A stretch of DNA of 40,177 bases, taken from positions 1 to 40,177 of the forward strand of contig JACQDB010000124.1 of NCBI GenBank assembly GCA_016201275.1, written 5' to 3'. The notes below the pieces were generated by a model. It was given only the letters and a program-made list of their open reading frames with translations. It did no database searches and was not told where the DNA came from. Below, one piece after another: positions 3,301-31,298 of this stretch. The stretch is from Acidobacteriota bacterium. GTDB taxonomy: Bacteria; Acidobacteriota; Blastocatellia; UBA7656. Each line of letters starts with the position of its first letter. Position 1 is the stretch's first letter. Position numbers and translations under genes: made by a program.

Positions 3301-6300
3301 GTCATCGTAAATGGTCGCGGTAATTTGATACTGTCCGCCTTCTTTGCTCTCGAACTGAGTTTCGACAGCCTCACTGGCGGATTTCAAATCGCGCTCTTGC
3401 GGATTGACTTCTTTTTGTTTCCACTCGCCTTTTTCCTGCACCCAATCGAGCAACACGGCGCGCACTTTGACATTGCGACCGGCGATGGCTTTGCCGTCCA
3501 AATCCGTGACGATGGTTTGGACTACGAGTGGTTCGCCTTTCTGCACGAAGGTGCGCGGACTGCGTATGCCTACATAGAGGTTCGCCGGATGCACCAACAA
3601 ACTTGATGAAGCATTCCACGCTTGGCGATTGACATCGGTGACGCTGGCTTCGGCGGTAATGGTGTACGGCCTGGGCGGGTCTGCCGAAATAAAATCAAGG
3701 TGCAAGCGATGTTTGCCCGCCGCATCGGTTCGCGCTGTGAAGGTTTGCGCCGACGAGGCGTCGCTTTGATTATATGAACGCCACCACGGAATCCATTTGC
3801 CGAAAGTGAAATCGTAACGATTCGGCGGCGTGTAATAAGCGGGTGTCGAACGCACCACCCAATTGACATCGGCATTGGGCAAACCGCCGCCTGCGTAATA
3901 AGCCGCTGTCACCGACACCTCTGCGCCGCCGCCTACGAAGTGCGGGCCTTCGCTGGCTTGCGCCGACACTTCAAATTCCGGGCGACGAAATTCCTGCACT
4001 TGAAATTGATGATTGAAAGTTCTGCCTTCCACGCCGCCGCGACTGCCTTGCGCTTCGAGTTGCAGATTGGTGTAGCCCAAATTCATCGTGCCGGGTAATT
4101 TCAACACCGCATCGAAACCGCCAAGCGCGTTGACTTGCATAATGCCTTTGGTGATTTCGTTGCCGCGTGAATCGCGCAGCACATAACTGATGCTGGTCGC
4201 TTCGCCATCGAGCGCCATCACGTCGCCATCTTTGCCCGCGCCTATGCGCCGTAACCAGCCTTTGAGGTGAACCTCTTCGCCGGGCTTGTACATCTTGCGG
4301 TCATCGAAGACGAACCAGCGCAGCGAATCGGTCAAGGGCTTGCGATACCAGTTGCCGTCATTGTTCCACCAGTAAATATTTTCCGGCAGCATGGCCACGT
4401 CTTTGCCTTTGCGGGCGACCAATAAACCGAAACCATTTTTGCCGCTGCGGTCAGGCAGAGCGATTTTAGCAAGGCCGTTGGCTTGCGTGATGCCGTTGGC
4501 GGTCGAACCGGGCAGCGACAATTGCACATCGTCCAGGGGCTTGCCGTCTTTCAACGAATTCGCCCAGCCAATTAAATCGCTGTTATCAACGAAAGCATCC
4601 AGGCCGATTTGCGTAGCCTGCAACCACGCTTTGATCGTGCGATTTTCCCAGCGATTTTTCGCTTTCACCGGCGGCTCTACGACGATGACGATTTGCCCGA
4701 AGCCGCCATCAAGAGCGGGGGCAAGGTCTATGCGGGTTTCGGCCATCTCATCGGGCTGGGCTTTGACGACTACCGAATTGGCGTAAACCAGTTTGCCGGG
4801 CGGCGGCGCGGGCTTGTTGTCGTTATCGTGCATGAACGCTCCGAACGCCTGCCAGTCTTCGGGCGCAACTTTGTATAGGCGCACTTTCAACGAATCATAG
4901 TTGATGCTGTAAACCGAAAAACGCGGCGTTGCCGTTGGGTCAAGGACTATGAAGTTGCTGCCCGACGAAGCCAATGCCGGAGGTGCGGATTTCACGTTGA
5001 AAGTAATCGGAGCGGTGTTGCCTAGGGTTTGGTCGAATTGATCTTTTATGGTTGGCGAAAGTTGCACGCGATAAGTCGTGCGGCCTTTCTTGATGCCTGT
5101 GATGACCAGGGTGTTGCCATACACCGCAGTCTTCATGCCTTCGATGGCCGGTTCGACTTTTACCTGTGCGGAGTCGAAGGCTTCTGCCTGAATCGGATTG
5201 GTGAAGTTGATCGTCCATTGATCGAAGGGCGAGCAGTTGTCGTTATAACCGCAACGCGATTCGGTGACGCGAAACGCGCCGTAGGTGCGAAACGAAAACG
5301 CTTGCGGCGCGGTGGTTTTCTTTGGCCCTTCGGCAGAAGGCGTACCGGCGGCAACCGTGACATTGACATTTGAATCTACTGGCAACATGGCTTTGTTGCC
5401 ATTGGCGTCAACCACACGAAACGCCAGCCAGCGATTTTTTTCGGCGTACTTCGCCAGGCTGCTGATGGTGTTGTCGCTATTGATTTCAGCTTCGCTGGCC
5501 AGTCTCAATTTGAATGGGGTGCTGCCCGAAGTGACTTTGATATTGGCAAGCACGGCTTCGGGATTGATGCGTTGATCGAAGGACACGAACATCAAAGGGT
5601 CGCGGCGCTGCGGTCCGTCATTGGGAAAATGCGCCTGCATTTGCGGCGGCGGTGTGGCGAAGCGAAAACTCTTTGCCGCCCCCAAACTGGCTCCTGTAGC
5701 CGATTTCGTGCCAGCAGGTATCGTCACCGTGTAATCGGTAGCGGCAGGAAAGCGTTGATCGTCGGCGGCTTCAAAGAGCAAAGTTTTGGTTCCTACCCAG
5801 CGCCATTTGCCCGCTGGTTGCGGCGTTAATTGCACGGGAACATTTTGCGCCGCGTCGCTTTGTGAAGTGACGGCAATCATCGGTTGCGAAAAAGTGACGC
5901 TGACTTGCGGCACCAAAGGCACATTGCCTTCGGGCGCAAAGCGCAACACCTGCAAAGGCACGTTGGGATTGTTATTCGCCTTGACCTCGGGCGGCGCGAG
6001 CGCTGTGGGCGAGGGAAAAGGGGTTTGAAGAGTTTTGCCGGTGCGCGGCGGCGGCAAGGATTTATCGCGTATGGCAAAATCCTGTTCATCGCTGGCGTCG
6101 CTTGTGATGGGTTGCAGCCGCTTCAACAAGTTTTGCGTTTCGTCATCGGCAAGTTTAGCGGCGACCGCTTGCGGCGGTCGGTCTTGCCGCGCAGCATTTT
6201 CGCTGCCTTCACTCAATTTGAATTGTAGTCCATTGGTCATGGGGTTCTGAACTCCTGCGGGGGTTGGGCGGCGCGGCGCTACACGGCGCTGGGCGTAGGC

Positions 6301-6381
6301 GTTTTGCTCTATGGCAAAAAGCGGCACGCATTGAAGTAAAATTAGTAAAGCGCAAAGGGTTTTGTGGTTGCACATCTTCAT
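319..6381 (-). CDS. Bacterial alpha-2-macroglobulin family protein, CSEQ thioester
   Basis: A 2020-residue secreted protein resembling bacterial alpha-2-macroglobulins, which trap proteases in the periplasm or at the cell surface. A signal peptide (about residues 1-31, ending near AYAQ) follows an ATG with GAGGAG about 8 bases upstream. Ig/MG-like domains fill the N-terminal half, including a KMYKPGEEVHLKG stretch near residue 690. A short Ala/Lys-rich segment before residue 1308 sits where the bait region is expected. The thioester motif is C1526-S-E-Q, keeping the Cys and Gln of the bacterial CxEQ pattern, and is followed by an alpha-helical thioester domain and a C-terminal receptor-like domain. 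No PbpC-like partner lies beside it. It is transcribed divergently from the RiPP cluster. Family call is confident; the target protease is unknown. Confidence 0.92.
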   Translation of the reverse strand: MKMCNHKTLCALLILLQCVPLFAIEQNAYAQRRVAPRRPTPAGVQNPMTNGLQFKLSEGSENAARQDRPPQAVAAKLADDETQNLLKRLQPITSDASDEQDFAIRDKSLPPPRTGKTLQTPFPSPTALAPPEVKANNNPNVPLQVLRFAPEGNVPLVPQVSVTFSQPMIAVTSQSDAAQNVPVQLTPQPAGKWRWVGTKTLLFEAADDQRFPAATDYTVTIPAGTKSATGASLGAAKSFRFATPPPQMQAHFPNDGPQRRDPLMFVSFDQRINPEAVLANIKVTSGSTPFKLRLASEAEINSDNTISSLAKYAEKNRWLAFRVVDANGNKAMLPVDSNVNVTVAAGTPSAEGPKKTTAPQAFSFRTYGAFRVTESRCGYNDNCSPFDQWTINFTNPIQAEAFDSAQVKVEPAIEGMKTAVYGNTLVITGIKKGRTTYRVQLSPTIKDQFDQTLGNTAPITFNVKSAPPALASSGSNFIVLDPTATPRFSVYSINYDSLKVRLYKVAPEDWQAFGAFMHDNDNKPAPPPGKLVYANSVVVKAQPDEMAETRIDLAPALDGGFGQIVIVVEPPVKAKNRWENRTIKAWLQATQIGLDAFVDNSDLIGWANSLKDGKPLDDVQLSLPGSTANGITQANGLAKIALPDRSGKNGFGLLVARKGKDVAMLPENIYWWNNDGNWYRKPLTDSLRWFVFDDRKMYKPGEEVHLKGWLRRIGAGKDGDVMALDGEATSISYVLRDSRGNEITKGIMQVNALGGFDAVLKLPGTMNLGYTNLQLEAQGSRGGVEGRTFNHQFQVQEFRRPEFEVSAQASEGPHFVGGGAEVSVTAAYYAGGGLPNADVNWVVRSTPAYYTPPNRYDFTFGKWIPWWRSYNQSDASSAQTFTARTDAAGKHRLHLDFISADPPRPYTITAEASVTDVNRQAWNASSSLLVHPANLYVGIRSPRTFVQKGEPLVVQTIVTDLDGKAIAGRNVKVRAVLLDWVQEKGEWKQKEVNPQERDLKSASEAVETQFESKEGGQYQITATIYDDRERRNESELTLWVAGGKVLPKRDVEQEEVQLIPNQKEYKPGDTAEILVQAPFFPAEAVLTLQRSGIISTERFTMNTASHTLKIPIKDAYTPNLNVQVDVVGAAVRTDDAGKPKETLPKRPAYGVGSLNLTIPPLSRKLTVKATPKDKATEPGKETSIAIEVKDDKGNAVSGSEVALVVVDEAILGLTGYRVGDPLYTFYSQRSADTSAYHLRERVLLARPDDLLSQLQQNGGSNLAGDIAYIVTDSNRMRMPSAASPAPMKAMKAKAPGEKDGGTDTPINVRENFNPLAIFAPTVKTDSDGRATVQVKLPDNLTRYRVMAVAVAGGKQFGMNETNLTARLPLMVRPSAPRFLNFGDKFELPVVLQNQTDFPMDVAVAVRASNAELTDGGGRRVTIPANDRVEVRFPTSAMKAGTARFQIAAASGEWADAAEVSLPVWTPATTEAFATYGELDNGAIIQPIKAPSDAIKQYGGLEVTTSSTQLQELTDAVLYLTAYPYECSEQLSSRIMSIAALKDVLTAFKAKDLPSPDAMVAAVKRDIKRLQGMQNGDGGFGFWKRGDETWPYLSIHVAHALQRAKEKGFDVPDDMLNRSKDYLRNIESKIPSYYGIDSRRALIAYALYVRNRLGDKDAARARRLIAEATLEKLSLEAVGWLLSVLSNEANSRAEVAAMRQHLNNRATEEAATAHFVTSYSDSNYLLLHSDRRADGVILEALIQDQPSNDLIPKVVRGLLAHRTEGRWGNTQENAFVLLALDKYFNTYEKVTPDFIARAWLGQTYAGDTTFKGRSINRFNFNVPMKYLLEQNGAQNLILSKEGAGRLYYRVGMQYAPTSLKLDPADYGFTVERKYEAIDKADDVKRDADGTWRIKAGAKVRVKLTMVAQSRRYHVALVDPIPAGLEALNPALAVTGSIPQDPNGSGAQGGYWWWWRTWYEHQNLRDERVEAFASLLWEGVYNYSYVARATTPGEFVVPPAKAEEMYHPETFGRSGSDRVIVE

Positions 6382-7057: not shown

Positions 7058-9286
7058 ATGAAAATTGTACTGGTTAATGTCATCGAGTTTGAACCGATTC
7101 ACGAATTCCTGCACGGCAAAAAGCATAACCAATCTACCCAATATCCGCCGATAGGGTTATTGACGCTGGCGGCAGTGTTGGAAGCCAAAGGTTACGAAGT
7201 CGAGGTCGTTGACTTTGGCAATCTGATTTTGAACGCGGCGCTGAAATGCGACGATCACTTGCCCACCCACGCCGCGCAGTATTTACAGAGTCGGCAAGGT
7301 GATGTGGTGGGTTTCTCTTCGCGTTGCGACAACTACCTGCACACCTTACGCATAGCCGAAGAGTTTCATTTGCTGGAACCGCTTGTGCCAATCGTCTTTG
7401 GCGGACCGCAGGCGACCATAACCGACGTAGCCACTATCGAGCAGTTTGGCTTTGTCAATTGCGTCGTGCGGCACGAAGCCGAATACTCGTTTCCGGCGCT
7501 TCTGGAAGCTCTTGATGATGGCAGGCCGTTTAACGATATTCCCGGCGTGGTCTTTCGCCAGCACGGCAAAGTGGTCAAAACTCCTGACCCCTCGTTGATC
7601 TTAGACCTGGATCAAATTCCCATGCCGTCCTTCAAATATTTCCCCATAGACACCCTCAACACCATGCCTGTAGAGGTTGGGCGCGGCTGTCCATTCGGCT
7701 GCACGTTTTGTGTCACCAATCGCTACTTTAATCGGCGCTACCGTTTGAAGAGCGCGGATCGCATCATTGATGAAGTCATCTGGCTACAGGAAAACTACGG
7801 CTTTCAACGCTACACCTTCATACACGATATGCTGACCGCCAGCCGTCAACTGGTGATGCAACTGTGTCGGCGCATGAAAGAACGCGAGGTAAAGATTGAA
7901 TGGTCTTGCAGCGCCAGAACCGATTGCGTGGACCGCGAGTTACTGGAAACCATGCGCGCTGTCGGTTGTCGGGATGTTTATTTTGGCATCGAAACCGGGT
8001 CGCACAGAATGCAGAAAGTGGTCAACAAAAACCTGAAACTGGAGGGTGTCTTTCCGGTGATTGATCTGTGCGCCGAGTTGGGCATAGCAGCGACGACTTC
8101 GTTTATTACAGGCTTCCCAGAAGAACAGGAAGAAGATGTCGAAGCGACGTTGAGAATGATGTTGCAGTTATCGCCGAAAGTGCCGAATGTGCAGTTGCAC
8201 CTATACAGTCCAACCCCCGGCACGCCGCTCAATGATAAATTTTCCGACCGCTTGGTGTTCACCGGCTACATCAGCGACTTCGGTTTCTCTACCACCTTTG
8301 GCGACGACGAGCAGCAGATGATTACCCAACATCCGGACATCTTCACCAACTATTTTCAGGTCGAGCCGCTGCATCTGGATTTTGCTTCACTGCGTGGGCT
8401 TGATGCGTTTGGTTATACGCTGCAAGCCTTCAAACATTTCTTCTTTTACTTGATGCACGAAGCGCAAGCGCCCAGCCTGTTTGAAGTATGGCAGCGAGTG
8501 CGGCGCTGGGCAGATGAGCAGCAGGTTGCCTGGAGCATTGCAACCATGTTGGCGAACGGTTTGACGGACGAGATGGCGGCGTTCATTCAACAGATGCTGA
8601 ATCAAGAGCCGCAGCTTTCGCCGGTTCTCACCGAGGCGTTTAATTTTGATCGCGCTTTGCTCCGTCTGGGAACCGCGACCAATCTGCTGGCAGACGATTA
8701 CAAGAGCGACTTGCAGGCTTTGCGTCGAAGTATGTTGTCATTGAAAACCGATAAGCAAGCCGTACTGCGCTTGCGAACCCCTGTGGTGCTTTCGCAGACG
8801 CGCTGCCCTCTCGCCAAAATGATGGAGGCGGTCAATACCCGCAAGCTCATACCGCTGACGATCAACGAGAAGCCGTTAGACATAGGCATCTATGCTGTCA
8901 AAGACCGCAGCGGTTCGCATGGTTTCACCTTTGCCGTTTTAGAAGTCAACGAGATTTATCAGGCGATTTTGGCGCATTGCGACAAGGCAATTTCGCAGGA
9001 CGATTTACTGATCGAGGTGAGGGCCAGTCTGCGGCAGCAGGGGATCGAGCCACCTCATTGCGAGTTGTTGTGCGAACGCGCCCTTGAACGATTGGTGCGC
9101 CTGCAATTGCTGTCGGTGCGAATGCAAGGCGAGACTTCAACCACCGATGCACTAACCGATTTATCAACCGATTCGCAGCGCCCAGCCTTGATTCGTATGC
9201 AGCCGTTGGCGATGCCTTTACCGGCTTTGCCGCCAGTGGCTTTCCGCGACCAGCACGCCGAAGCCAATCGTCTGGCGGCAAGGTAG
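7058..9286 (+). CDS. Cobalamin-binding radical SAM enzyme with PqqD-like C-terminus
   Basis: A 742-residue protein. Residues 1-150 match a B12-binding Rossmann domain (PPIGLLTLAAVLEAKGYEVE). The radical SAM core follows with C211-PFG-C215-TF-C218 and later GIETGS and TGFPEE strands. In this class, cobalamin usually supports methyl transfer to unactivated carbons or other radical rearrangements. Residues about 608-690 look like a PqqD-type winged helix (EVNEIYQAILAHCDKAIS, then two helices ending in LVRLQLLSV), the usual RiPP leader-recognition fold. ATG at 7058 follows GAAGGAA. It is the first gene of the cluster, 72 bases before a pseudo-radical-SAM gene. Cobalamin dependence and a peptide substrate are inferred; the radical SAM call is certain. 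Confidence 0.88.
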   Translation: MKIVLVNVIEFEPIHEFLHGKKHNQSTQYPPIGLLTLAAVLEAKGYEVEVVDFGNLILNAALKCDDHLPTHAAQYLQSRQGDVVGFSSRCDNYLHTLRIAEEFHLLEPLVPIVFGGPQATITDVATIEQFGFVNCVVRHEAEYSFPALLEALDDGRPFNDIPGVVFRQHGKVVKTPDPSLILDLDQIPMPSFKYFPIDTLNTMPVEVGRGCPFGCTFCVTNRYFNRRYRLKSADRIIDEVIWLQENYGFQRYTFIHDMLTASRQLVMQLCRRMKEREVKIEWSCSARTDCVDRELLETMRAVGCRDVYFGIETGSHRMQKVVNKNLKLEGVFPVIDLCAELGIAATTSFITGFPEEQEEDVEATLRMMLQLSPKVPNVQLHLYSPTPGTPLNDKFSDRLVFTGYISDFGFSTTFGDDEQQMITQHPDIFTNYFQVEPLHLDFASLRGLDAFGYTLQAFKHFFFYLMHEAQAPSLFEVWQRVRRWADEQQVAWSIATMLANGLTDEMAAFIQQMLNQEPQLSPVLTEAFNFDRALLRLGTATNLLADDYKSDLQALRRSMLSLKTDKQAVLRLRTPVVLSQTRCPLAKMMEAVNTRKLIPLTINEKPLDIGIYAVKDRSGSHGFTFAVLEVNEIYQAILAHCDKAISQDDLLIEVRASLRQQGIEPPHCELLCERALERLVRLQLLSVRMQGETSTTDALTDLSTDSQRPALIRMQPLAMPLPALPPVAFRDQHAEANRLAAR

Positions 9287-9358: not shown

Positions 9359-10612
9359 ATGAAAAGACCAGGAAACTTACGCATCAGTAGCTACATTAGC
9401 AATTTTCCTTTGCCGGGAGAGCGCTTCGTGTGTTCCGTGCATGGCTATTCTGGCGCGGTTGATATTTTTCACAACACTCTCGCCGAAGCCTTGGAGAAGG
9501 GCGATTTTCAAGCCTGTTTGAAAACCAGCGAGGTTGAACAGATGCTGACCCAAAGAGGCTATCTGACGACGCGCACGGCTGCCGAAGAGACGCAGTTTAT
9601 TTCGCAGGTCAATGAATTGTACTGGAACAAACAGCCGTTTGTTACGGAGTTTGCGCTGACGTTCAAACGCCCGTCCGCCACTGCGGAAAACCGCCTCAAG
9701 GCTCCGGGTTTTATTGATAATCTGCTGCTCGCTTTGAATGAACTGCGCGGCATCAATGCCGGATGTCTGCTGGAAATGGATCTGCGCGAACTCGATGCCG
9801 ATCAATTAGAAGTCATCGAACAGCTTTTCTCGTTAGCCAAAAATTGGGACTTCAATATTCACCTGATGATTAGCGACGCGCAACTTCAAGAGCTTGCCAA
9901 ATTCATACGGCAGGAATTGGTATTGAAGTTGAGTGTGTTCATCGCCCAGCCCGACGCGCTGTGGAGCCGTCCCAGAAGCGCCGAGCAAGCGATGGATTAT
10001 CCTTTCGATTGCCTGCTCGAAATCATAGATAAAGAGGTGCAGGTCGAATGCTTCATCAACGCGGACGACGCCAGTGATGAAACGCTGGGCGATTTTCTGA
10101 GCCATCTGCAGCGCTTACGCCAGCGCATCCAAACCGCTAATGATGCCCAGTTGATTTTGATTCCGCTGACTTCGCAAAACGGCAATCGGCAAGCGCGTAT
10201 GCTGGAGGTGTGGGCTGGCGTCATCCCTTTGCGCGAGGATGAGTTGGCGGATTTTCGCCAACTGGAAACTCATATGTGGTCTAAGCGTATGGTGCGATTT
10301 CGCCCTTGCTTTGCGGTCAGCAATCGCCGCTACGAAGCCTTTTCCAGTGGCGAAATTGATTTGGTGACGGACTTCGGGCGCAACCGCAAAGCCATCGGGC
10401 AGGTCTTTGCAGACCACTATGAACTGGCGTCAACCGATGACGAACCCGCGCCGTCCAAACACGCCTTGCAAGACTTACCGCAAGAGTGCCTGACCTGCCG
10501 ACTCTCTTTGTTGTGCGGCGGCAATTGCAATGTGTGGGACGCCAGTATTGGCGAGCATTTCAAACAGAAGGCGGCACGCTTGTTGACCATACCGTTTCTC
10601 AATCAGCTGTAA
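9359..10612 (+). CDS. Pseudo-radical-SAM protein with SPASM-like C-terminus
   Basis: A 417-residue protein resembling the radical SAM/SPASM enzyme encoded just downstream. Both start with a short beta domain containing an H-G-[VY]-[ST]-G-A motif and a RGYLT helix near residue 65-70. Where the paralogue has its CxxxCxxC cluster site, this protein has no cysteine. The C-terminus keeps C377-x2-C380-x5-C386-x3-C390, the same spacing as in the paralogue. It therefore probably cannot bind the SAM-cleaving cluster but may hold an auxiliary cluster or act as a scaffold or leader-binding partner. Pseudo-rSAM partners are known from GG-Bacteroidales peptide systems (from memory). GAGGT lies before the ATG. 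An independent degenerate family is the alternative. Confidence 0.75.
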   Translation: MKRPGNLRISSYISNFPLPGERFVCSVHGYSGAVDIFHNTLAEALEKGDFQACLKTSEVEQMLTQRGYLTTRTAAEETQFISQVNELYWNKQPFVTEFALTFKRPSATAENRLKAPGFIDNLLLALNELRGINAGCLLEMDLRELDADQLEVIEQLFSLAKNWDFNIHLMISDAQLQELAKFIRQELVLKLSVFIAQPDALWSRPRSAEQAMDYPFDCLLEIIDKEVQVECFINADDASDETLGDFLSHLQRLRQRIQTANDAQLILIPLTSQNGNRQARMLEVWAGVIPLREDELADFRQLETHMWSKRMVRFRPCFAVSNRRYEAFSSGEIDLVTDFGRNRKAIGQVFADHYELASTDDEPAPSKHALQDLPQECLTCRLSLLCGGNCNVWDASIGEHFKQKAARLLTIPFLNQL

Positions 10613-10650
10613 TTTTTTTTGAGCAGGAAACCGTTTCGCAAGGAGGAATT

Positions 10651-12099
10651 ATGGAGAGCTTGAGAAGAAGCCGATACACGCTGATGTCTGACCTAGCCAT
10701 TGGAGGCCAGCGTCTTCTCTTGCATGGCGTGACCGGCGCTATGGATGAAGTCGCCGACCAAGTTGGGGCATTTCTCAAGGACACCTCCTTGAGTGTTGAA
10801 GAAGGCGTACAAAAGTACAACATTTCTCAGGAGACTTTGCGCGTGATGGAGGAGCGCGGCTATCTGACCAAATTGGCAGAAGATCAAGAACGTCAGCGGG
10901 TCGGAAAATACATCACCAAGTTGCACACCCTCAAACTGGAAAATTGCGCTTCCTTCATGATTGTCGTCACTTACTTGTGCAACCTGCGTTGTCATTACTG
11001 TTTTCAAAAACCGTTGGTCGAAGCCGATGGCAAACGCCTCTTCAGCGACCTGATTAGCGTGGAAATGGTAGATGCGGCTTTTGCCGCTATGGCGCAACTG
11101 ATTAAGCAAAAGCGCGCCCGCCATAATCTTGAACTATTCGGCGGCGAGCCTTTGCTGGCACGCAATCGCCCGGTGGTGCAATACATCATAGAGCAAGCCC
11201 GCGAGCGCAATTTCAGCGTCACCGCAACCTCGAATTCGACCGACCTGCATCATTACGAAGACCTGTTGGGCCCCGGCGGCATTGAAAAAATTCAAGTGAC
11301 CATAGATGGCGCGCCGGAAATGCATGACAAGATTCGCATATACCCCAGCGGCAAAGGCTCGTTCGAGAGCATCAGCGATAATATCAGTCGGGCGCTGGAT
11401 CGCGGCGTGGTCATCAATCTGCGAATCAATATCGCCAAATATAATATTCAACAACTGCCCACCATCGTCGAACATATACAGCAGAAGGGTTGGGCGAAAT
11501 ACGAAAACTTTGCCGCTGGCCTGGCAGAGGTGCATTACATAGGCATACAGGATGATCGTTCAAAAGAGTTAAGCCATCTGGAATTGATTGACAGCGTGGC
11601 GGCGCTCGACGCGCCGTACTTCACGAAAAAGGCTTTGGTGCGCGGCGTTTTTGGCAGGCATTTCAACTATTTTCCGGGACAACCTCCGGCTCCGAAATTC
11701 GATACCTGTTTCTGCAATGCGATGCAGGGGCATTATGTTTTCGATCCTTATGGCAACGTCTATACCTGCACGGAAGACGTAGGCTTTGAGCGAGCGCGGG
11801 TCGGCACGTATTACCCCGGTGCGTTGCAGTTTGATGCCTTGCGGCTCAAGGGCTGGCACGAGCGCACGGTGGCGAATCTGCCAGACTGTCCGAGTTGCGA
11901 GTATTTGCAGGTCTGTGGCGGCGGCTGCGCTCGCAATGCTTTGCTCGACACGGGCGATGCTTGGACTTCTTACTGCACGGATTTCAAAGCGTATTTCCAG
12001 AAAGTGCTGACCTTGCTTTATGAAGATTATAAAAGCAGTGATGGCCCAGACCCTGCGGTGCTGGGACTCTCGTCAATGGTGACGGCTTGTAAATCCTAA
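10651..12099 (+). CDS. Radical SAM/SPASM peptide maturase
   Basis: A 482-residue enzyme. The start at 10651 is chosen because AGGAGG lies 4 bases before it; a longer reading would overlap the preceding gene. Residues 1-95 form the N-terminal domain of SPASM peptide maturases (HGVTGAMDE, EERGYLT). The catalytic cluster is C110-NLR-C114-HY-C117, followed by the ELFGGEPLL motif. The SPASM half has CFC and CTED sites and C413-x2-C416-x5-C422-x3-C426, expected to bind auxiliary 4Fe-4S clusters. Such enzymes install thioether, C-C or C-O crosslinks on ribosomal peptides. It sits 38 bases after its catalytically dead paralogue and upstream of the precursor genes, suggesting a two-subunit maturase. 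Confidence 0.93.
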   Translation: MESLRRSRYTLMSDLAIGGQRLLLHGVTGAMDEVADQVGAFLKDTSLSVEEGVQKYNISQETLRVMEERGYLTKLAEDQERQRVGKYITKLHTLKLENCASFMIVVTYLCNLRCHYCFQKPLVEADGKRLFSDLISVEMVDAAFAAMAQLIKQKRARHNLELFGGEPLLARNRPVVQYIIEQARERNFSVTATSNSTDLHHYEDLLGPGGIEKIQVTIDGAPEMHDKIRIYPSGKGSFESISDNISRALDRGVVINLRINIAKYNIQQLPTIVEHIQQKGWAKYENFAAGLAEVHYIGIQDDRSKELSHLELIDSVAALDAPYFTKKALVRGVFGRHFNYFPGQPPAPKFDTCFCNAMQGHYVFDPYGNVYTCTEDVGFERARVGTYYPGALQFDALRLKGWHERTVANLPDCPSCEYLQVCGGGCARNALLDTGDAWTSYCTDFKAYFQKVLTLLYEDYKSSDGPDPAVLGLSSMVTACKS

Positions 12100-12117
12100 G
12101 AAGCTGTTTGAACTGTG

Positions 12118-12222
12118 GTAGCGCCAGCGTCTCGCTGGCTGTAGCGGTGGCATCTTGCCGCCGTTGGGTGTTACAAGGAGTGCAAGATGCACTCCCCACA
12201 GCCGCCAAGCGGGCGGCGCTAC
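12118..12222. repeat. REP-like palindromic element, copy 1
   Basis: Bounded by GTAGCGCC (12118-12125) and its complement GGCGCTAC (12215-12222), with further internal stems (CAGC/GCTG and GCAAGATG segments). Its first 27 bases, from 12116, match exactly those at 17003-17029. It fills part of the 341-bp gap between the SPASM enzyme and the precursor genes. This looks like a dispersed REP-type repeat rather than a gene. Confidence 0.7.
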
Positions 12223-12440
12223 ATTGCAAAAAGCTCAAGCGAGCGCCTGGCCGACACTTTTGCGGAGAACCAGGGTTCGGCTTCGCGCCCCCATCATACC
12301 CGCAGAGCGACGGCGTATGACTGGGCAAAAGTTCTCCGGGCAACCGGAGCGCTGCCTACGCAGCACCTCTGAGAAGACCGTAAACAATACGGGACTCAGT
12401 TTCAACCTCAGTCGCGTGAATCTTAGAAAGGAGGAAAATT
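12223..12440. promoter_or_regulatory. Upstream region of the precursor genes
   Basis: No gene is seen here. A CTCCGG-GCAA-CCGGAG hairpin lies at 12334-12349, and the region ends in AAAGGAGG, an excellent ribosome site for the first precursor at 12441. This 5' region is where a dedicated precursor promoter would be expected, but I could not assign -35/-10 boxes. Confidence 0.4.
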
Positions 12441-12569
12441 ATGGCGGAAAAAGATGTTCAAATCATGCCGATTAACTCAAACATCCTGACAGGCATCACC
12501 ATTGATGAGTTGGAAGATCGCTTGGAGATGCAGTTGCTCGGTTTGTTCGATGTGCTGGCGCTGTCGCAG
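12428..12569 (+). repeat. 142-bp direct repeat, copy 1 (RBS plus leader)
   Basis: Identical base for base to 12726-12867. It contains the AAGGAGGAAAATT ribosome site and codons 1-43 of the precursor. Identity stops exactly at the CAG codon 43, where leader ends and core begins. Zero divergence means recent duplication, gene conversion or an assembly artefact. Confidence 0.95.
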
Positions 12570-12674
12570 CCAAACGGTTTAGCGGAGAATATTTTCGCCT
12601 ACACCGCTTTTCAAGAGGTTCCCAGACCATCTGTGTTAGAGGGTGAGGGCTGGCAACAGGCTCTTATCCTCTAA
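12441..12674 (+). CDS. RiPP precursor peptide, copy 1
   Basis: A 77-residue peptide with a strong AAGGAGG site. Residues 1-43 form an acidic, leucine-rich leader (ITIDELEDRLEMQLLGLFDV), an amphipathic helix suited to binding a PqqD-like domain. Residues 44-77 form the putative core. It is cysteine-free and contains F52, Y54, F57, R62 and W71 and ends in Leu-Ile-Leu. The absence of Cys argues against thioether crosslinks; aromatic-centred C-C or C-O links, epimerisation, methylation or Arg-to-ornithine conversion remain possible. The position between radical SAM genes and a PqqD/M50 gene, and the duplicated leader with a different core, are typical of RiPP precursors. I do not recognise the leader as a named family. 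The leader/core boundary is inferred from the repeat boundary. Confidence 0.8.
   Translation: MAEKDVQIMPINSNILTGITIDELEDRLEMQLLGLFDVLALSQPNGLAENIFAYTAFQEVPRPSVLEGEGWQQALIL
12636..12674 (+). promoter_or_regulatory. 15-bp RNA hairpin ending the first precursor
   Basis: Bases 12636-12650 pair with 12660-12674 over 15 consecutive positions (twelve Watson-Crick, three G-U) around a 9-base loop. The TAA stop is the base of the stem. There is no U tract, so it is more likely an mRNA stabiliser or attenuator that adjusts precursor-to-enzyme ratio than a terminator. Confidence 0.6.
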
Positions 12675-12676
12675 AC

Positions 12677-12725
12677 CAGAGATGTCGGCTTGCGCGCATC
12701 TCTGACATCAACCTGCTGCGGCAGG
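12677..12725 (+). promoter_or_regulatory. Two hairpins before the second precursor
   Basis: CAGAGATG (12677-12684) pairs with CATCTCTG (12697-12704). CCTGC-TGCG-GCAGG (12712-12725) then ends right at the ribosome site of the second copy. Together with the preceding hairpin, the 64-base spacer is almost fully structured, which could limit read-through or translation of the second copy. Confidence 0.5.
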
Positions 12726-12867
12726 AAGGAGGAAAATTATGGCGGAAAAAGATGTTCAAATCATGCCGATTAACTCAAACATCCTGACAGGCATCACCAT
12801 TGATGAGTTGGAAGATCGCTTGGAGATGCAGTTGCTCGGTTTGTTCGATGTGCTGGCGCTGTCGCAG
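12726..12867 (+). repeat. 142-bp direct repeat, copy 2 (RBS plus leader)
   Basis: Exact second copy of 12428-12569, offset 298 bp. Its right boundary lies inside a small palindrome (12859-12879), which may mark the recombination point. Confidence 0.95.
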
Positions 12868-12879
12868 ATGGAGCGACAG
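12859..12879 (+). repeat. Palindrome across the leader/core junction
   Basis: CTGTCGC (12859-12865) and GCGACAG (12873-12879) form a 7-bp stem with a 7-base loop. The junction between duplicated leader and unique core DNA (12867/12868) lies in the loop, so this palindrome may have promoted the rearrangement that produced the frame change. Confidence 0.5.
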
Positions 12880-12890
12880 TTTCAACGACC

Positions 12891-12921
12891 TGGATGAGGG
12901 GATTGCTGAACCCCTCATCCA
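12891..12921 (+). promoter_or_regulatory. Perfect 11-bp hairpin with 9-base loop
   Basis: TGGATGAGGGG (12891-12901) and CCCCTCATCCA (12911-12921) are perfectly complementary. The in-frame TGA of the short reading lies in the left arm. There is no T tract right after it (a run of T occurs only about 25 bases later), so attenuation or mRNA processing between precursor and M50 gene is more likely than full termination. Confidence 0.6.
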
Positions 12922-12996
12922 GCGTTGCGGTTGGGGATTCGGAAAACTTTTTTGGGATGAAAACGGTCATCCTGAGTCTGCCAATGGGGAGTTGGA

Positions 12997-14358
12997 ATGA
13001 GCATAGACCAACTGATGCTATCGTTGCCGGAAGGCTGTTCGCTGTGGCGCATTGATACCAGCTTTGTCGAAACCCAATGGTTGTTGGTGACGCCGAACAA
13101 TCGCAAATTTCAGGTCTCTGCCAAAGCCAGTGATGTGATTTCGGAAATCCTCGACGAGCGCAAATCGCTTGCCGATCTTGCCAATACGCTGTCGGCGAAA
13201 TGGCAGGTTCCGGTCATGTCGGAAGATGTGTTGACCATCATTGAATCGGCTTACTGGCCGCAAGATTTGTTGAGAAAATCAACGCCCTGGGAATCCGAAG
13301 CAGTGTTGGAAGCGTCCATTGCAGAGCGCACAAGCAAATCTCTATTCGGAGATTTTTTTATACGCTTCACGGTACTCCCGGAGGCGGTTGTCCGCCGCAT
13401 AGCCGCACACTTGACCGGACTTTACCATCACGGCATTGCCCTGTTGTTGCTCGTCGCCATTGTCGGCGTGCATTTTTTGCTATTCCGTTATTTGGCCGCG
13501 CAGCCTTCTTGGGCGGCAACCTTGAGCTTGTCGCCTTCGCAATATGTAGCGGCCTTTGGCCTGATGGTCGGCAGCGTGCTGTTTCACGAATTGGGTCACG
13601 CAACGGCTGCCGCTGCCTTTGGGGTTCAGCCGGGAGCCATTGGCTGCGGCATCTATTTTATTTACCCGGCATTTTATACCGAGTTGGGTTTTGCCTGGTT
13701 ATTGCCGCGAGGCAAGCGCATGGTGGTTGATGTAGGCGGCTTCTACTTTCAACTGCTCACCACGCTGCCGCTTTATCTGGCCTTTTTCCTGAGCGGCAGC
13801 CGCGTTACTGTACTGGTTATCTTGTCTATAGATTTTCTGATCGGCTTTTCGCTGATCCCATTTTTCAAGTTTGATGGTTACTGGTTACTAGCCGATTTAT
13901 TGGGCATACCGAATCTGCAAAAGCACGCTATGGAATTGCTCGGCAGTCCGCAAAAGATTGTTCGCAATAAATTTTTCACCACCAAAAAGGGCTTGCAGTT
14001 GCCGCGCTGGTTGTCGTTGTCGTTGTTGGTTTATGGCGCGCTTTTTCTGCTCTTTCAAATCGGCATTGCCTTGTTGATTTTCAAAAATGGTCCGGCCTTT
14101 ATTTTTGCTGCGCCGGTAAAATTTTATACCTTAGCGCAGGAATTGTTTGCGGAGGTGGCTGCCGGACAACTTATGCTTGCCGCCCAACAAGGCATACGAA
14201 TCCTGATGTTGCTGGTCACTACACTGGCACTGATTTTGATATTCAAAAGTTACCTCAGACTTTTTCTTTATTGGGGCAAGAAGTATGGCAATCGCTTATG
14301 GCGTGCGAGCGCAGGCGTAAGCGCATCGGCAGTTTCTGAAGGGAGAAATCACCAATGA
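12997..14358 (+). CDS. M50-family membrane metalloprotease with PqqD-like N-terminus
   Basis: A 453-residue integral membrane protein. Residues 1-95 resemble a PqqD-type winged helix (RKFQVSAKASDVISEIL, then a LADLANTL helix), a RiPP leader-binding module. Several membrane segments follow. One contains the zinc motif H197-E-L-G-H201, and a FDGYWLLADLLGIPN segment with D293 supplies the likely third ligand, as in site-2-protease relatives found in RiPP clusters. The probable job is cleavage of the leader at the membrane, possibly coupled to release. The ATG overlaps the +1-frame stop of the second precursor core (ATGA), and its own stop overlaps the next gene the same way. A purely transport role cannot be excluded. 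Confidence 0.85.
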   Translation: MSIDQLMLSLPEGCSLWRIDTSFVETQWLLVTPNNRKFQVSAKASDVISEILDERKSLADLANTLSAKWQVPVMSEDVLTIIESAYWPQDLLRKSTPWESEAVLEASIAERTSKSLFGDFFIRFTVLPEAVVRRIAAHLTGLYHHGIALLLLVAIVGVHFLLFRYLAAQPSWAATLSLSPSQYVAAFGLMVGSVLFHELGHATAAAAFGVQPGAIGCGIYFIYPAFYTELGFAWLLPRGKRMVVDVGGFYFQLLTTLPLYLAFFLSGSRVTVLVILSIDFLIGFSLIPFFKFDGYWLLADLLGIPNLQKHAMELLGSPQKIVRNKFFTTKKGLQLPRWLSLSLLVYGALFLLFQIGIALLIFKNGPAFIFAAPVKFYTLAQELFAEVAAGQLMLAAQQGIRILMLLVTTLALILIFKSYLRLFLYWGKKYGNRLWRASAGVSASAVSEGRNHQ

Positions 14359-15473
14359 ATTATACCTACACCAAAACCGAATTTGTGGAATTTTACCAGC
14401 AAATAGGCATTGAAATTGGTCGCCTATGCAATGCCCGATGCGAGCATTGCATCACCTATTCCGGCCCCAAGAATAAAGAGAAGATGGAGCCGACCATGTT
14501 GCGGCGCATCTTGAAAGAGGCAGGCTCATTGGGCTTGCCGCACGTCGAAATTACCGGCGGCGAACCCTTTCTCTTTCTCGATGAGTTGGAGGAAATCATC
14601 GCGCTGGCAAAAAGCTATGGGATGCGAACCGGCATCACTACCAATAGCTCTTGGGCGACCAAGCATGAAAGGGCTGTGAAGATTCTGATGCGCCTGAAAG
14701 CTGCCGGGCTGGTGCGCTTGCGTTTCAGCATAGACCAATATCATTTGAATTACATACCGTTGGAACGAGTCGAAACGGCGGTCAAAGCGGCGGCAGAAGT
14801 TGGCATCTATCCGCTGATTGAAGCGGCGGTGGGGCGCAAAGACTATCGCGCCTACGAAGCGGTGCATCGCTTGAAGGCGCTGGCCGTGGAATTGAAGATG
14901 TGTGAATTGCTGCCCTTTGGCAGAGCCGCCGAATTTGCCCCTGAAACTTTTTTCAGCGGCTCGTTTTATCAAGTGGCGCATACGCCTTGTCCTACGGCTG
15001 GGGTTCCGGTCGTCGAAAACGATGGGCGCGTGCTGTTGTGCTGCACCTATCCGGTGGCGCAAGACCCCAACGATATGGAAAGCCCCTTTGTGTTGGGCAG
15101 CACCAAAGAGGAATCCTTAGCCGATATTCTAGCTCGGCATCTCTACAACCCGCTGTTGCGAGTTCTGCGTTATGAAGGGCCGGGCGGTTTGCTGCGGGTT
15201 TTGGAAGAGGGCTATGGCAAGAAACAATATAAACCCAGAGAGCTTTATCCTGGCAGCATCTGCACGCTGTGTGCAGACATGATGGATCATGTGAATCTCA
15301 GAAAACTCTGGCACGAGACGGTTGCCCAGCACGATATGACCGCGTGGTTTACGCCGCCGGTTGATATGGAGCATCGCCCCGTCGAACAAGTCAGGATGGC
15401 AAACGCGCAGAGCAAATCGCGCAGCCTGCCCATCGTCACCTTGAGTTGCGGCGATTCGCACCCGCACCAATGA
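14355..15473 (+). CDS. Radical SAM enzyme with SPASM/twitch-like C-terminus
   Basis: A 372-residue enzyme with C25-NAR-C29-EH-C32, then VEITGGEPFLF as the SAM-contacting GGE motif. C-terminal cysteines (CPTAG, LLCCTYP, CTLC) suggest a SPASM or twitch auxiliary cluster. It lacks the N-terminal domain of the enzyme at 10651 and is closer in size to single-domain peptide epimerases or crosslinking enzymes, though the reaction cannot be told from sequence. ATG overlaps the M50 stop (ATGA), and its own TGA overlaps the start chosen for the next gene, so the three are translationally coupled. Last radical SAM gene of the cluster. Confidence 0.9.
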   Translation: MNYTYTKTEFVEFYQQIGIEIGRLCNARCEHCITYSGPKNKEKMEPTMLRRILKEAGSLGLPHVEITGGEPFLFLDELEEIIALAKSYGMRTGITTNSSWATKHERAVKILMRLKAAGLVRLRFSIDQYHLNYIPLERVETAVKAAAEVGIYPLIEAAVGRKDYRAYEAVHRLKALAVELKMCELLPFGRAAEFAPETFFSGSFYQVAHTPCPTAGVPVVENDGRVLLCCTYPVAQDPNDMESPFVLGSTKEESLADILARHLYNPLLRVLRYEGPGGLLRVLEEGYGKKQYKPRELYPGSICTLCADMMDHVNLRKLWHETVAQHDMTAWFTPPVDMEHRPVEQVRMANAQSKSRSLPIVTLSCGDSHPHQ

Positions 15474-16933
15474 AGCAACGGTTGAGGAGAAATGCGGAAC
15501 AGGCAAACGTCATGGAGACTTTAATTTTTGCCGAACACTCATCGGTGCTGCCTGTGTGGAAGCAGCGCGACCTACGCCAACGAACGCTGGTTTATCTGGA
15601 CGCGCATCTGGACTTGAAGCAGATCAGCGACCTTCGTTTGCAGCGACTACGCAACTGCCAAACGGCTGAGGAAATGGCGCAGTTGGAAAAGCCACATTTT
15701 CTAGTCACAGACGAAGGCTACAGTTTTAGCATTGAAGATTTTTTATACCCTGCCCACCGGCTCGGTTTCATAGAGCGCTTGATCTGGGTATGTCCGGGCG
15801 AACAAGTCCCAGACCTTGCTACGGTTCTCAAACGCGCTTTGCAATTTTTAGAGGGTGTACCGCTGGAAGATTTGCAAACCTTGAAACGCCACGGCGAAGT
15901 TCTGGAAGCCAAGCTCTTCGGCTTGCCTGTGGTCATCGCTTCGTATCAATACCTGAAGCATCTGCAACTGCCGCCCGACAGTTTGATAGACATAGATATT
16001 GATTACTTTATTTCAACCGCTACCGACCGCCCCTGGGTGAACCCGCAAAAAGTTTTTCAAGCCTTACAAGAGTTAGCGCTGCGCTCGGAATTGGTGACCC
16101 TGACGCGCTCGGTCAGCAGTGGCTTCACGCCTCTGCGTTACAGTTTTATTGCCGATTATCTGGCCGCCTTGTTTCGCGGAGATGAGCGCCAGGCAACGCA
16201 TTTTGCGCGCTTGTACGAACTCGATGAACAAGCGCAAAGAGGCGAACTGGCGACAGCCCTGCAAGGTTGTCTGAGCGAAGCCGAACAGTTTGCCGAGTGT
16301 CCAGCGACTTACTATCTGGCGAGTTTGTGCGAAGCCACAGAGGAGCGCCAAGCGGCGGCGCGCAATCGCGCTGTGGCGCTTTGTGCCAGCTATCGTCGGA
16401 GTGTGTTACGGTCGGCTTGCGGCGTTATCAATCGCACCAGAAAATTCGAGCTTGCTAAACTCGTAGCGTTAGAGAACCGTCTGCAACAAGAGGAAAGCAC
16501 AGCGGCGGACGAAGCCGCTTTGACCGATTTGATTATGGGAATGCTGTGCAGTCATCTGGGACTATTGGGCAAAACGCTGGGCTATCATTTCCGTTATAAG
16601 AAGGCCGCCGGACGACACGCCAGATTAAATGCCGCGCTAGGATTGCTGTTAAATGAACAAGGTCAAGCGCGCCGCGCCTTGCCGTTTTTCCGCGCCGCTT
16701 TGTCAGAAGACCAGACCAGACCGCGAGCCTATCTGCACTTGGGTATGCTTTATCTCCAACAGAAAAATTACCAAGCGGCTTTAGAAAATCTTTTGCCAGC
16801 CAGCCAATTGCTACCGGCGTTTCGTGAGCCTGTGCGAATGCTGGCGCACCTGTATGAACGAATCGGCGACCGCGAACAGTATCGCTTCATGCTCAAACGC
16901 TATCAGGAAATGAACCGCATCATTGCCACCTGA
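15470..16933 (+). CDS. UPF0489 (arginase-fold) protein with TPR tail
   Basis: A 487-residue protein. Residues 15-240 match UPF0489: FAEHSSVLPVWKQ, then the metal-binding pair D44-A-H-L-D48 and D174-I-D176-I-D178, the pattern of the ureohydrolase/arginase fold. Residues about 370-480 carry three TPR-like helical pairs. From memory, peptide arginases that turn arginine into ornithine in proteusin RiPPs (OspR type) belong near this family; each predicted core here has exactly one Arg. The start at 15470 makes the same ATGA overlap as the two junctions upstream; ATG 15512, at the beginning of the conserved domain, is the alternative. The peptide-arginase role is inference; the UPF0489 call rests on the two acidic motifs. 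Confidence 0.72.
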   Translation: MKQRLRRNAEQANVMETLIFAEHSSVLPVWKQRDLRQRTLVYLDAHLDLKQISDLRLQRLRNCQTAEEMAQLEKPHFLVTDEGYSFSIEDFLYPAHRLGFIERLIWVCPGEQVPDLATVLKRALQFLEGVPLEDLQTLKRHGEVLEAKLFGLPVVIASYQYLKHLQLPPDSLIDIDIDYFISTATDRPWVNPQKVFQALQELALRSELVTLTRSVSSGFTPLRYSFIADYLAALFRGDERQATHFARLYELDEQAQRGELATALQGCLSEAEQFAECPATYYLASLCEATEERQAAARNRAVALCASYRRSVLRSACGVINRTRKFELAKLVALENRLQQEESTAADEAALTDLIMGMLCSHLGLLGKTLGYHFRYKKAAGRHARLNAALGLLLNEQGQARRALPFFRAALSEDQTRPRAYLHLGMLYLQQKNYQAALENLLPASQLLPAFREPVRMLAHLYERIGDREQYRFMLKRYQEMNRIIAT

Positions 16934-17004
16934 TGCGGCGCAGATCATTGCCGTTTTCAAGAACGATACGTTGAGAGGGTGATGGGAAAATAAAAAAAAG
17001 GTTG

Positions 17005-17054
17005 GTAGCGCCAGCGTCTCGCTGGCTGTCGTGAAGGCAAGATGGCGGCGCTAC
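17005..17054. repeat. REP-like palindromic element, copy 2
   Basis: GTAGCGCC (17005-17012) and GGCGCTAC (17047-17054) bound a 50-bp element. With flanking bases, 17003-17029 matches 12116-12142 exactly and in the same orientation. The two copies bracket the precursor-M50-rSAM-UPF0489 block. Confidence 0.7.
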
Positions 17055-21145: not shown

Positions 21146-21493
21146 CAGGGATTTTCGGCTTTGGTTAAGGAAATCTTGAGGGCGCTGCCCGGCAGTTCAC
21201 CGCACGCTAGAGCGCAGCTGTGCCTCTACGCCGCTGATGAGTGCATGGTATGGCGTTGCCGGAGACCACGGTTTTCGCCAATCACTTGCCGCTGCGCTGA
21301 GGTTGCCAATGACTTTAATGACTTTGCGGCATACAGAAAAATTATTGGACAGGGCTACCGAAATCGGCTAAAACATTAGCATTCAAGCGGGTGATAAATC
21401 TGCTCAATCAGCCTGATACGCAGTCGTTTCATTAGCGCTCAGGCCAAGCAGCAATGAGAAGTGAAACATTCCAATCCATACGGAGGCTTTACA
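21146..21493. other. Intergenic region, 348 bp
   Basis: No gene with a plausible ribosome site is seen; a 72-codon open frame at 21161-21379 has no support. GGAGG just before 21494 is the ribosome site of the permease. Confidence 0.4.
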
Positions 21494-23911
21494 ATGGGAA
21501 ATCTTCTACAAGATATTCGCTACGCAATCCGCACCATGTATAAAAAGCCGGGATTGACTCTTGGCGCTATGGTTGCGCTCATTCTGGCGATTGGCGCGAA
21601 CACGGCGATGTTTACGGTGGTCAATGCGGTTTTGCTGCGCCCTTTGCCTTATACGAATCCTGAAAATCTGGTTATCCTGCGGGAAACCAACCTGCAAAAG
21701 AGCACCGATTCCTTCAACGTCTCGCTGCCTAACTTGCGCGACTGGCAGGAGCAAGGGTCGAGCTTCGAGCAACTGGCCGCCTATAAAAACAAGGTCGTTA
21801 ATCTCTCGACTCAAGGGCAAGCCGAGCGCTTGCAGGGAACCCAGGTTTCCACCAATCTTTTCCCCATGCTGGCCGCCAAGACGGCTCTTGGTCGCCCCTT
21901 TGTCGAAGCCGACGGCCAAGCCTCTAAAGGCAACGTGGTCATCCTGAGCTATAATTTGTGGCAACGAAATTTCGCTGCCAATCCGGCTATCGTCGAGCAA
22001 CCGATTACGCTGGACGGCCAAAGCTATACGGTCATCGGGGTGATGCCCAAAGCCTTTCAATTTCCGCCGGAAAGCCAAAACGTCGAACTCTGGATGCCGC
22101 TGATGTTGGACTCTGCCAATGGCGAAAGAGCCTCCAGACAACTTCAAGTTATTGGCCGACTCAAACCCGGAGTGTCCGCAACTACGGCGCAGGTCGAAAT
22201 GAACACCGTCGCCCAACGCCTGGCCCTACAGTACCCGGATTCAAACAACGGCTGGGGCGTACAGGTAGAAGGTCTGCACGACAATCTGGTTAAAGAAGTG
22301 CGCCCGGCGCTTTATGTCTTGATGGGCGCGGTGGTTTTCGTGTTGCTGATTGCCTGTGCCAATGTGGCCAATCTGTTGCTGGTCAAATCTCTGCAGCGAC
22401 AAAAAGAGATGGCGATTCGCACCGCTTTAGGTGCTAGCCGGTTTCGTATCATTCGCCAACTGCTCACCGAAAATATTTTGCTGGCCTTGGTCAGTAGTCT
22501 GCTCGGTTTGCTGCTGGCGTATATGGGCATAGACCTTCTGCTCACCTTGAATCCCGAAGATGTGCCGCTTTTGCAGCAGGTGAAAATAGACGGCTGGGTT
22601 TTCGGATTTACGCTGTTGCTGTCATTGGTGACGGCGCTGGGATTCGGTTTAGCGCCTGCCCTGATGGTCTCGAAACAGAATCTCAGCCAGACCTTGAAAG
22701 AGGAGAGCGGGCGCGTCAGTCTGAGCGTGCGGCAAAGTCGCGGACGGCAACTGCTGGTCATAGGCGAAATCGCCATCGCGGTGATTTTGTTGATTGGCGC
22801 GGGTTTGATGTTAAAGAGTTTTCTGCAATTGCAAAATGTTGACCCGGGATTCAAGAGCGCCGAGGTGTTGACCTTGCGCGTCTCGCTGCCGGTGTCGAAA
22901 TATGCTACGGCCCCACAGTGGGCAGCGACGTTGCAGCAGATTCTCCAACGACTGGAAACGATGCCCGGCGTGAAATCCGTCGGCGCGATCAGCACCTTGC
23001 CGTTGAGCGGCGATAACATCGTCTTTGATTTTGCCATAGCCGAACATCCGTTGGCGCAAACCAGCGATAAACCTTCGGCGACCTTCAACGCTATCAGCCC
23101 CAATTACTTTCACACTTTGAGCATACCGCTGCAAACGGGGCGGTACTTCGCCGACACCGATGTGGCGGGAGCGAGTCCGGTAATCATCATCAACGAAGCG
23201 ATTGCCAAACGCTTTTTCGGGTCACAGAATCCTTTGGGGCAGCACTTGATTGTCGGCTACGGCGAAGCGGTGCCGCGTGAAATCGTCGGTGTCGTCGGCA
23301 ATGTTCGTCATACGGCGCTGGATGCCGAAGTGCAGCCGCAAGTCTATCTGCCTTACCTGCAAACGCCGCTGCCGTTTATGAGTGTCGCTTTGCAAACCAC
23401 GGTGGAGCCAAATCAATTGATTAGCGCGGCACGCCATCAAGTGACCGCAGTGGACAATGAATTGCCGATCTATCGCGCCATGCCTTTGTCGCAAGTAGTT
23501 GCCAAGTCACTGGGACAACCGCGCTTCCGTGCGCTCTTGCTGGGGCTGTTTGCCTTGGTGGCGCTGGCGATTGCGACGGTCGGTATTTACAGCGTCATGT
23601 CGTATTCGGTCAGCGAACGCATTCGTGAAATCGGCATTCGTATGGCGCTCGGCGCACAACCTCGACAAATCTTTTCAATGGTAATCGGGCAGGCCATGAC
23701 GCTGGTCTTGATCGGCTTGTTATTGGGCATGGTGGCGACGCTGTTGCTGTCGCCAGTGTTAGCGAATTTTCTAGTAGGAGTTGGCAAAATCGAAGCCTTG
23801 CCATTTGTCGGCCTGGCGCTACTGCTGGCCGCTATTGCCTTCATCGCCTGCTGCATACCGGCGCGGCGCGCCAGTCTGGTTGATCCTCTGGTAGCGATGC
23901 GTTATGAGTAG
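21494..23911 (+). CDS. ADOP-type MacB/FtsX orphan ABC permease
   Basis: An 805-residue membrane protein. N-terminal DIRYAIRTMYKKPGLTLGA and AVLLRPLPY motifs are the signature of acidobacterial duplicated orphan permeases. There are two MacB-PCD/FtsX units: the first with a membrane helix near residue 30 and an FtsX block about 270-400, the second with a helix near 420, periplasmic part 450-660 and an FtsX block 690-800 (IREIGIRMALGAQPRQIF). No ATPase gene is adjacent, as usual for this family. Start ATG 21494 is chosen for its GGAGG. It could move peptides or lipids across or out of the inner membrane; a link to the RiPP cluster is positional only. Confidence 0.9.
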   Translation: MGNLLQDIRYAIRTMYKKPGLTLGAMVALILAIGANTAMFTVVNAVLLRPLPYTNPENLVILRETNLQKSTDSFNVSLPNLRDWQEQGSSFEQLAAYKNKVVNLSTQGQAERLQGTQVSTNLFPMLAAKTALGRPFVEADGQASKGNVVILSYNLWQRNFAANPAIVEQPITLDGQSYTVIGVMPKAFQFPPESQNVELWMPLMLDSANGERASRQLQVIGRLKPGVSATTAQVEMNTVAQRLALQYPDSNNGWGVQVEGLHDNLVKEVRPALYVLMGAVVFVLLIACANVANLLLVKSLQRQKEMAIRTALGASRFRIIRQLLTENILLALVSSLLGLLLAYMGIDLLLTLNPEDVPLLQQVKIDGWVFGFTLLLSLVTALGFGLAPALMVSKQNLSQTLKEESGRVSLSVRQSRGRQLLVIGEIAIAVILLIGAGLMLKSFLQLQNVDPGFKSAEVLTLRVSLPVSKYATAPQWAATLQQILQRLETMPGVKSVGAISTLPLSGDNIVFDFAIAEHPLAQTSDKPSATFNAISPNYFHTLSIPLQTGRYFADTDVAGASPVIIINEAIAKRFFGSQNPLGQHLIVGYGEAVPREIVGVVGNVRHTALDAEVQPQVYLPYLQTPLPFMSVALQTTVEPNQLISAARHQVTAVDNELPIYRAMPLSQVVAKSLGQPRFRALLLGLFALVALAIATVGIYSVMSYSVSERIREIGIRMALGAQPRQIFSMVIGQAMTLVLIGLLLGMVATLLLSPVLANFLVGVGKIEALPFVGLALLLAAIAFIACCIPARRASLVDPLVAMRYE

Positions 23912-31020: not shown

Positions 31021-31298
31021 GCGCACCGACATCAATCATTCATAACCCTTGCTCACTGTAGAAATGGTTTGCGCTGAGTCTTTTCGCACCGGTTTCTGCA
31101 AGAACTTCTCCGTCTTGTCATTCTTCCGATCAGCAAACCCGTGACATACTTAACCGCTCACTGTGGGAAGAAGCACACGCATTATGAAGATATTGCCCGA
31201 CCGTCTGGCCAGCTAATCCCATACTTTTCTGCCAGCCAATCCAGCGGATGTAGAGGCAAGGTTTCTGAGCCGTGATGGCTTTAGAGGAGGATACGAAA

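Follow-up and report, generated by a model that had tools for sequence, protein, structure and literature searches.

Two tandem genes in the window (the whole 40,177-nt stretch of DNA that was analysed) begin with the same 142 bp, covering the ribosome site and the leader, and continue into unrelated cores. We give a probability of about 0.7 to the reading that they are tandem RiPP precursors with common maturation enzymes, and that their ribosome sites and leaders were recently made identical by confined copying. A recent copying event limited to the ribosome site and leader is required, since whole-gene duplication followed by divergence could not leave 43 codons without a synonymous difference next to cores that cannot be aligned.

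Extent and limits of the exact repeat

By direct reading and by repeat search, positions 12428-12569 and 12726-12867 (both + strand) are identical at 142 of 142 bases, with a spacing of 298. The first copy contains the ribosome-binding site (aaggagg) and codons 1-43 of precursor A, and the second the ribosome-binding site and codons 1-43 of precursor B. The repeat therefore runs from the Shine-Dalgarno sequence, 13 bases 5' of the ATG, to the end of codon 43. A single mismatch (12427/12725) lies directly 5' of it, and in-register matches per 30 nt are 30/30 within the repeat against 2-11/30 outside, so that similarity is at background level beyond both ends. The duplication with different cores reported in the original prediction is thus confirmed. 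Abrupt ends combined with identity far above that of the flanks, as expected of leader-limited gene conversion between paralogues, were found in this 142-bp pair.

A chance origin is excluded by the length of the repeat, which is the only exact one of at least 45 nt in the window. The source genome (6.84 Mb, 98.7% complete, draft of 162 contigs) yielded no third leader copy, and the 156-bp spacer (12570-12725) had only short chance matches in the rest of it. Between the two copies, no promoter or terminator was detected above chance, and neither an exact 30-mer search against viral contigs nor an Rfam search gave a match. Another exact repeat, REP-like, 27 nt long and containing GTAGCGCCAGCGTCTCGCTGGC, occurs at 12116-12142 and 17003-17029; the genome search returned these two sites only, each of them intergenic within the cluster.

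It had also been claimed that identity ends exactly at the leader/core boundary. The end is indeed abrupt, but this boundary had been placed where identity stops, with no independent evidence for it, and the claim is circular because identity itself defines the boundary. The leader part conserved in relatives stops about 11 codons before the end of the repeat, at ...RLEMQ(L/V/I)L.

Precursor genes and their hairpins

Precursor A (12441-12674, + strand) is an ORF of 77 aa, composed of the leader MAEKDVQIMPINSNILTGITIDELEDRLEMQLLGLFDVLALSQ, homologous to the precursors of the related genome G005, and the core PNGLAENIFAYTAFQEVPRPSVLEGEGWQQALIL. The translation of precursor B (12739-12897, + strand) gives 52 aa, the leader of A being followed by MERQFQRPG. 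The cores are very unequal in length, 34 aa in A and 9 aa in B, and the nine core codons of B have no coding signal of their own.

A stem-loop with a perfect 8-bp stem (12677-12704, + strand) lies 2 nt 3' of the stop of A. At the stop of B there is a second one (12890-12922, + strand), with a perfect 12-bp stem and a 9-nt loop, whose 5' arm contains the in-frame stop codon (12895-12897); when the region was shuffled 200 times, such a stem arose twice. Considering the window together with the related loci described below, 23 of 76 family precursors, where 2.6 would be expected, have a perfect stem of at least 8 bp just 3' of the stop. These hairpins possibly stabilise the mRNA or act in attenuation.

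As expected for RiPP precursors, A and B are short ORFs with a ribosome site adjoining genes for peptide-modifying enzymes, and their conserved leader is common to precursors beside homologous enzymes in the G005 loci and the M50-linked loci. Gene neighbourhood and leader family thus support A and B as a putative tandem RiPP precursor pair. The hairpin at its stop and the 51-aa length of a G005 precursor argue for B as a short precursor, and we regard its being a remnant as possible, though somewhat unlikely.

The surrounding enzyme cluster

Both precursors are directly upstream of a gene for a protein with a PqqD-like N-terminal region and an M50-type HELGH intramembrane metalloprotease (12997-14358; NCBIfam daptide_HExxH 7e-29, LiaK 1e-11 and PqqD 0.01, all below curated cut-offs). 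This PqqD/M50 protein is a candidate leader-binding or processing partner. On the same strand (+), the upstream side encodes a B12-binding radical SAM protein, ApyD-like (7058-9286; 2.7e-120, below the equivalog cut-off), a protein with weak SPASM similarity and no radical SAM match (9359-10612), and a radical SAM/SPASM peptide maturase-like protein (10486-12099), whose true start is probably downstream of 10486. Downstream, also on the + strand, are a radical SAM protein resembling the YydG epimerase (14355-15473; 8e-27, below cut-off) and a peptide-arginase-like (UPF0489) domain fused to TPR repeats (15446-16933; FlmR/OhkR-type 4e-6, UPF0489 0.0065, TPR). This last protein has a G005 homologue at 29% identity.

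The enzyme names are given by similarity only, because NCBIfam equivalog scores fall below the curated cut-offs. The cluster could not be assigned to the YydF epipeptides or daptides (daptide_HExxH 101 of 300 bits, YydG 94.5 of 300 bits), nor to the aminopyruvatides (Apy), with ApyD at 403 of the 750 bits of the equivalog cut-off. Further away, an ABC-permease-like gene (21461-23911), of MacB/FtsX type by eye, is a candidate exporter, and homologues of it are also near the M50 gene in four related loci (L018, L020, L021 and L056). Two ORFs of about 2000 aa, alpha-2-macroglobulin-type by eye, flank the cluster (319-6381 on the - strand and 31272-37439 on the + strand).

Related loci and the precursor family

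From 162 genomes of the class and a sample of 396 genomes of the phylum, the leader was found only in G000 and G005. The latter, from the same family and a different genus, is the sole close relative. Variable numbers of leader copies had been anticipated in related genomes; G005 does contain two related loci matching the leader, but with one copy each, each beside a homologous M50 gene, so that they give no evidence of recurrent copy-number change. One of these loci has four cluster enzymes in common with the window, at 29-39% identity. The region upstream of A (GAATCT-TAGAAAGGAGG) resembles the region upstream of a G005 precursor (G005a), and the region upstream of B does not. This similarity has a p of about 0.0005 with the Shine-Dalgarno sequence included and is not significant without it, and it was set aside as a marker of the ancestral copy, being only weak in this role.

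When 84,980 species genomes were scanned with an M50 alignment, 80 loci (L018-L097) were retrieved. Short ORFs with the leader motif ...ELExRLE(M/T)... are present in 49 loci including the window, 13 of which have at least 2 such ORFs; for the leaders tested, neither Pfam nor NCBIfam yielded a model. As in the window, the leader motif is encoded upstream of a homologous M50 gene in these metalloprotease RiPP clusters, often in tandem precursors. Among 56 within-locus precursor pairs, 46 are more similar in their leader DNA than in their core DNA. The window pair stands at the far end of this range (leader 1.00 vs core 0.41), the nearest comparable pair being that of L032 (0.90 vs 0.54), and unlike the window, no other locus has a pair combining an identical leader with unrelated cores. 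L032 and L056 (Acidobacteria) share the layout of the window, but with synonymous differences, and their similarity is concentrated from the ribosome site or ATG to the end of the leader.

In L043 (a Prevotellaceae MAG, about 7361-7573), one ORF reads leader-leader-core with a period of 108 nt and two silent differences; this is an independent leader-only duplication. The arrays of L046 and L074 are whole-gene duplicates. The reverse pattern, with cores at 0.94 and leaders at 0.79, was observed in L082 (Shewanella sp. NIFS-20-20, 936-1241).

Origin of the repeat

We suggest that the copies were most likely made identical by gene conversion, or by a crossover between alleles, with homology only in the ribosome site and leader. 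Ordinary recombination between paralogues sharing just this stretch would yield the observed limits. In this reading, the PqqD/M50 protein and the radical SAM enzymes would recognise the leader as a tag, and the differing ends would serve as alternative cores, with a product presumably made from B as well. Complete identity with an abrupt collapse on both sides favours this explanation, as do the homology of the leader to single G005 precursors beside homologous M50 genes and the hairpin after each copy in the window, a feature of far more family precursors than expected. Further support comes from the 46 family pairs in which leaders exceed cores in similarity, from the leader-centred similarity in L056 and L032, and from the leader-only duplication of L043. 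Against it counts the core of B, which has only 9 aa in frame and lacks coding signal, so that B may be a remnant. We infer both the direction and the route of copying; an alternative route would be a partial duplication setting a leader copy before another core, and by its bases this genome would bear an identical trace of gene conversion and of partial duplication. The original prediction had proposed a mechanism that reuses a leader cassette to present new cores. Of this, the need for leader-limited copying, by gene conversion or partial duplication, holds, given the 43 codons free of synonymous changes. A special mechanism is unsupported, since leader conservation with core divergence, in a milder form, is already the rule in the precursor family (46/56 pairs), and special machinery is not needed: if the two genes had only this stretch in common, ordinary gene conversion or crossing-over would stop where it stops.

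Among the other explanations, partial duplication in which B consists of a leader fused to non-core DNA or to what remains of a core is possible but unlikely; the leader would have been inserted before or between unrelated sequence, and B would encode a non-functional short peptide. The nine codons without coding signal fit this proposal, L043 shows that a leader alone can be duplicated, and the upstream region of A, not that of B, is the one resembling the G005 precursor, although this resemblance is not significant without the Shine-Dalgarno sequence. On the other hand, B ends at a strong hairpin, as family precursors often do, and at 52 aa it matches in length the single precursor of G005 (51 aa). 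It seems quite improbable to us that B is frameshifted and that its true core is WSDSFNDLDEGIAEPLIQRCGWGFGKLFWDENGHPESANGELE, read in the +1 frame up to where it overlaps the M50 gene at an ATGA. That frame has 43 open codons, and the overlap would be like the one between the M50 and epimerase-like genes; however, this 43-aa core was rejected, since most of its apparent coding signal is contributed by the hairpin palindrome, and 3' of the hairpin the codons score below zero.

Whole-gene tandem duplication, followed by fast core divergence under selection on the leader, is hardly credible here, even though conservation in RiPP precursors generally resides in the leader and duplicates of this kind are seen in other arrays of the family (L046, L074). 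Cores, spacers and upstream regions are unalignable beside 43 codons and a ribosome site with 0 synonymous differences, and synonymous sites are beyond the reach of protein-level selection, which makes this route insufficient by sequence, a later homogenising event being still necessary. We also consider very improbable an assembly artefact, by mis-joining or collapse of similar leader copies. In its favour, the assembly is a draft (162 contigs) and 142 bp comes close to the length of a short read, but none of the cores, hairpins and 156-bp spacer is repeated, and the genes are ordered as in an operon; moreover, mis-assembly normally drops short tandem copies rather than adding them, and related arrangements occur with synonymous differences in L043 and L056. 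Equally improbable is a broader version of the copying explanation, by which the precursors of the M50-linked family would have diversified through recurrent copying of ribosome site and leader before new sequence, with the hairpin as module boundary and cores captured rather than evolved.

Comparison with known systems

Common leaders allow one enzyme set to mature many peptides. How an old leader acquires new cores is something that the passage of time usually obscures, and the event in the window is recent enough for its limits to be read at the base level. It concerns a precursor family represented in many phyla, and searches gave no curated model for that family. Our literature search on leader-limited gene conversion in RiPPs returned general precedents only. 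In the pat/tru cyanobactins of Prochloron, nearly 100% identity of the leader and the DNA around it goes together with short core stretches that are unrelated (PMC3062557). Near-identical leaders with hypervariable cores are thus shared with the window pair, but in Prochloron the identical DNA comprises whole pathways between strains or loci, whereas in the window it amounts to 142 bp shared by two tandem genes, and the maturases and leader are different. In the prochlorosins (Nif11-type leaders, ProcM), many precursors with a common leader and diverse cores are served by one enzyme set, and recombination has been suspected (PMC10783134); cores are likewise diverse behind a shared leader in the window, although the leader and chemistry are unrelated. 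The FlmR/OhkR peptide-arginase clusters have an arginase-like enzyme alongside several precursors (PMC12703449), as does this multi-precursor cluster, but the DD(I/V)LF motif of their precursors is absent from A and B. The window pair works like the cyanobactins and prochlorosins, yet it lies outside those families and belongs to the M50-linked precursor family. Conserved leaders with divergent cores are already known in such peptides, and the pair described here is a real, very clean and fresh instance of that pattern.
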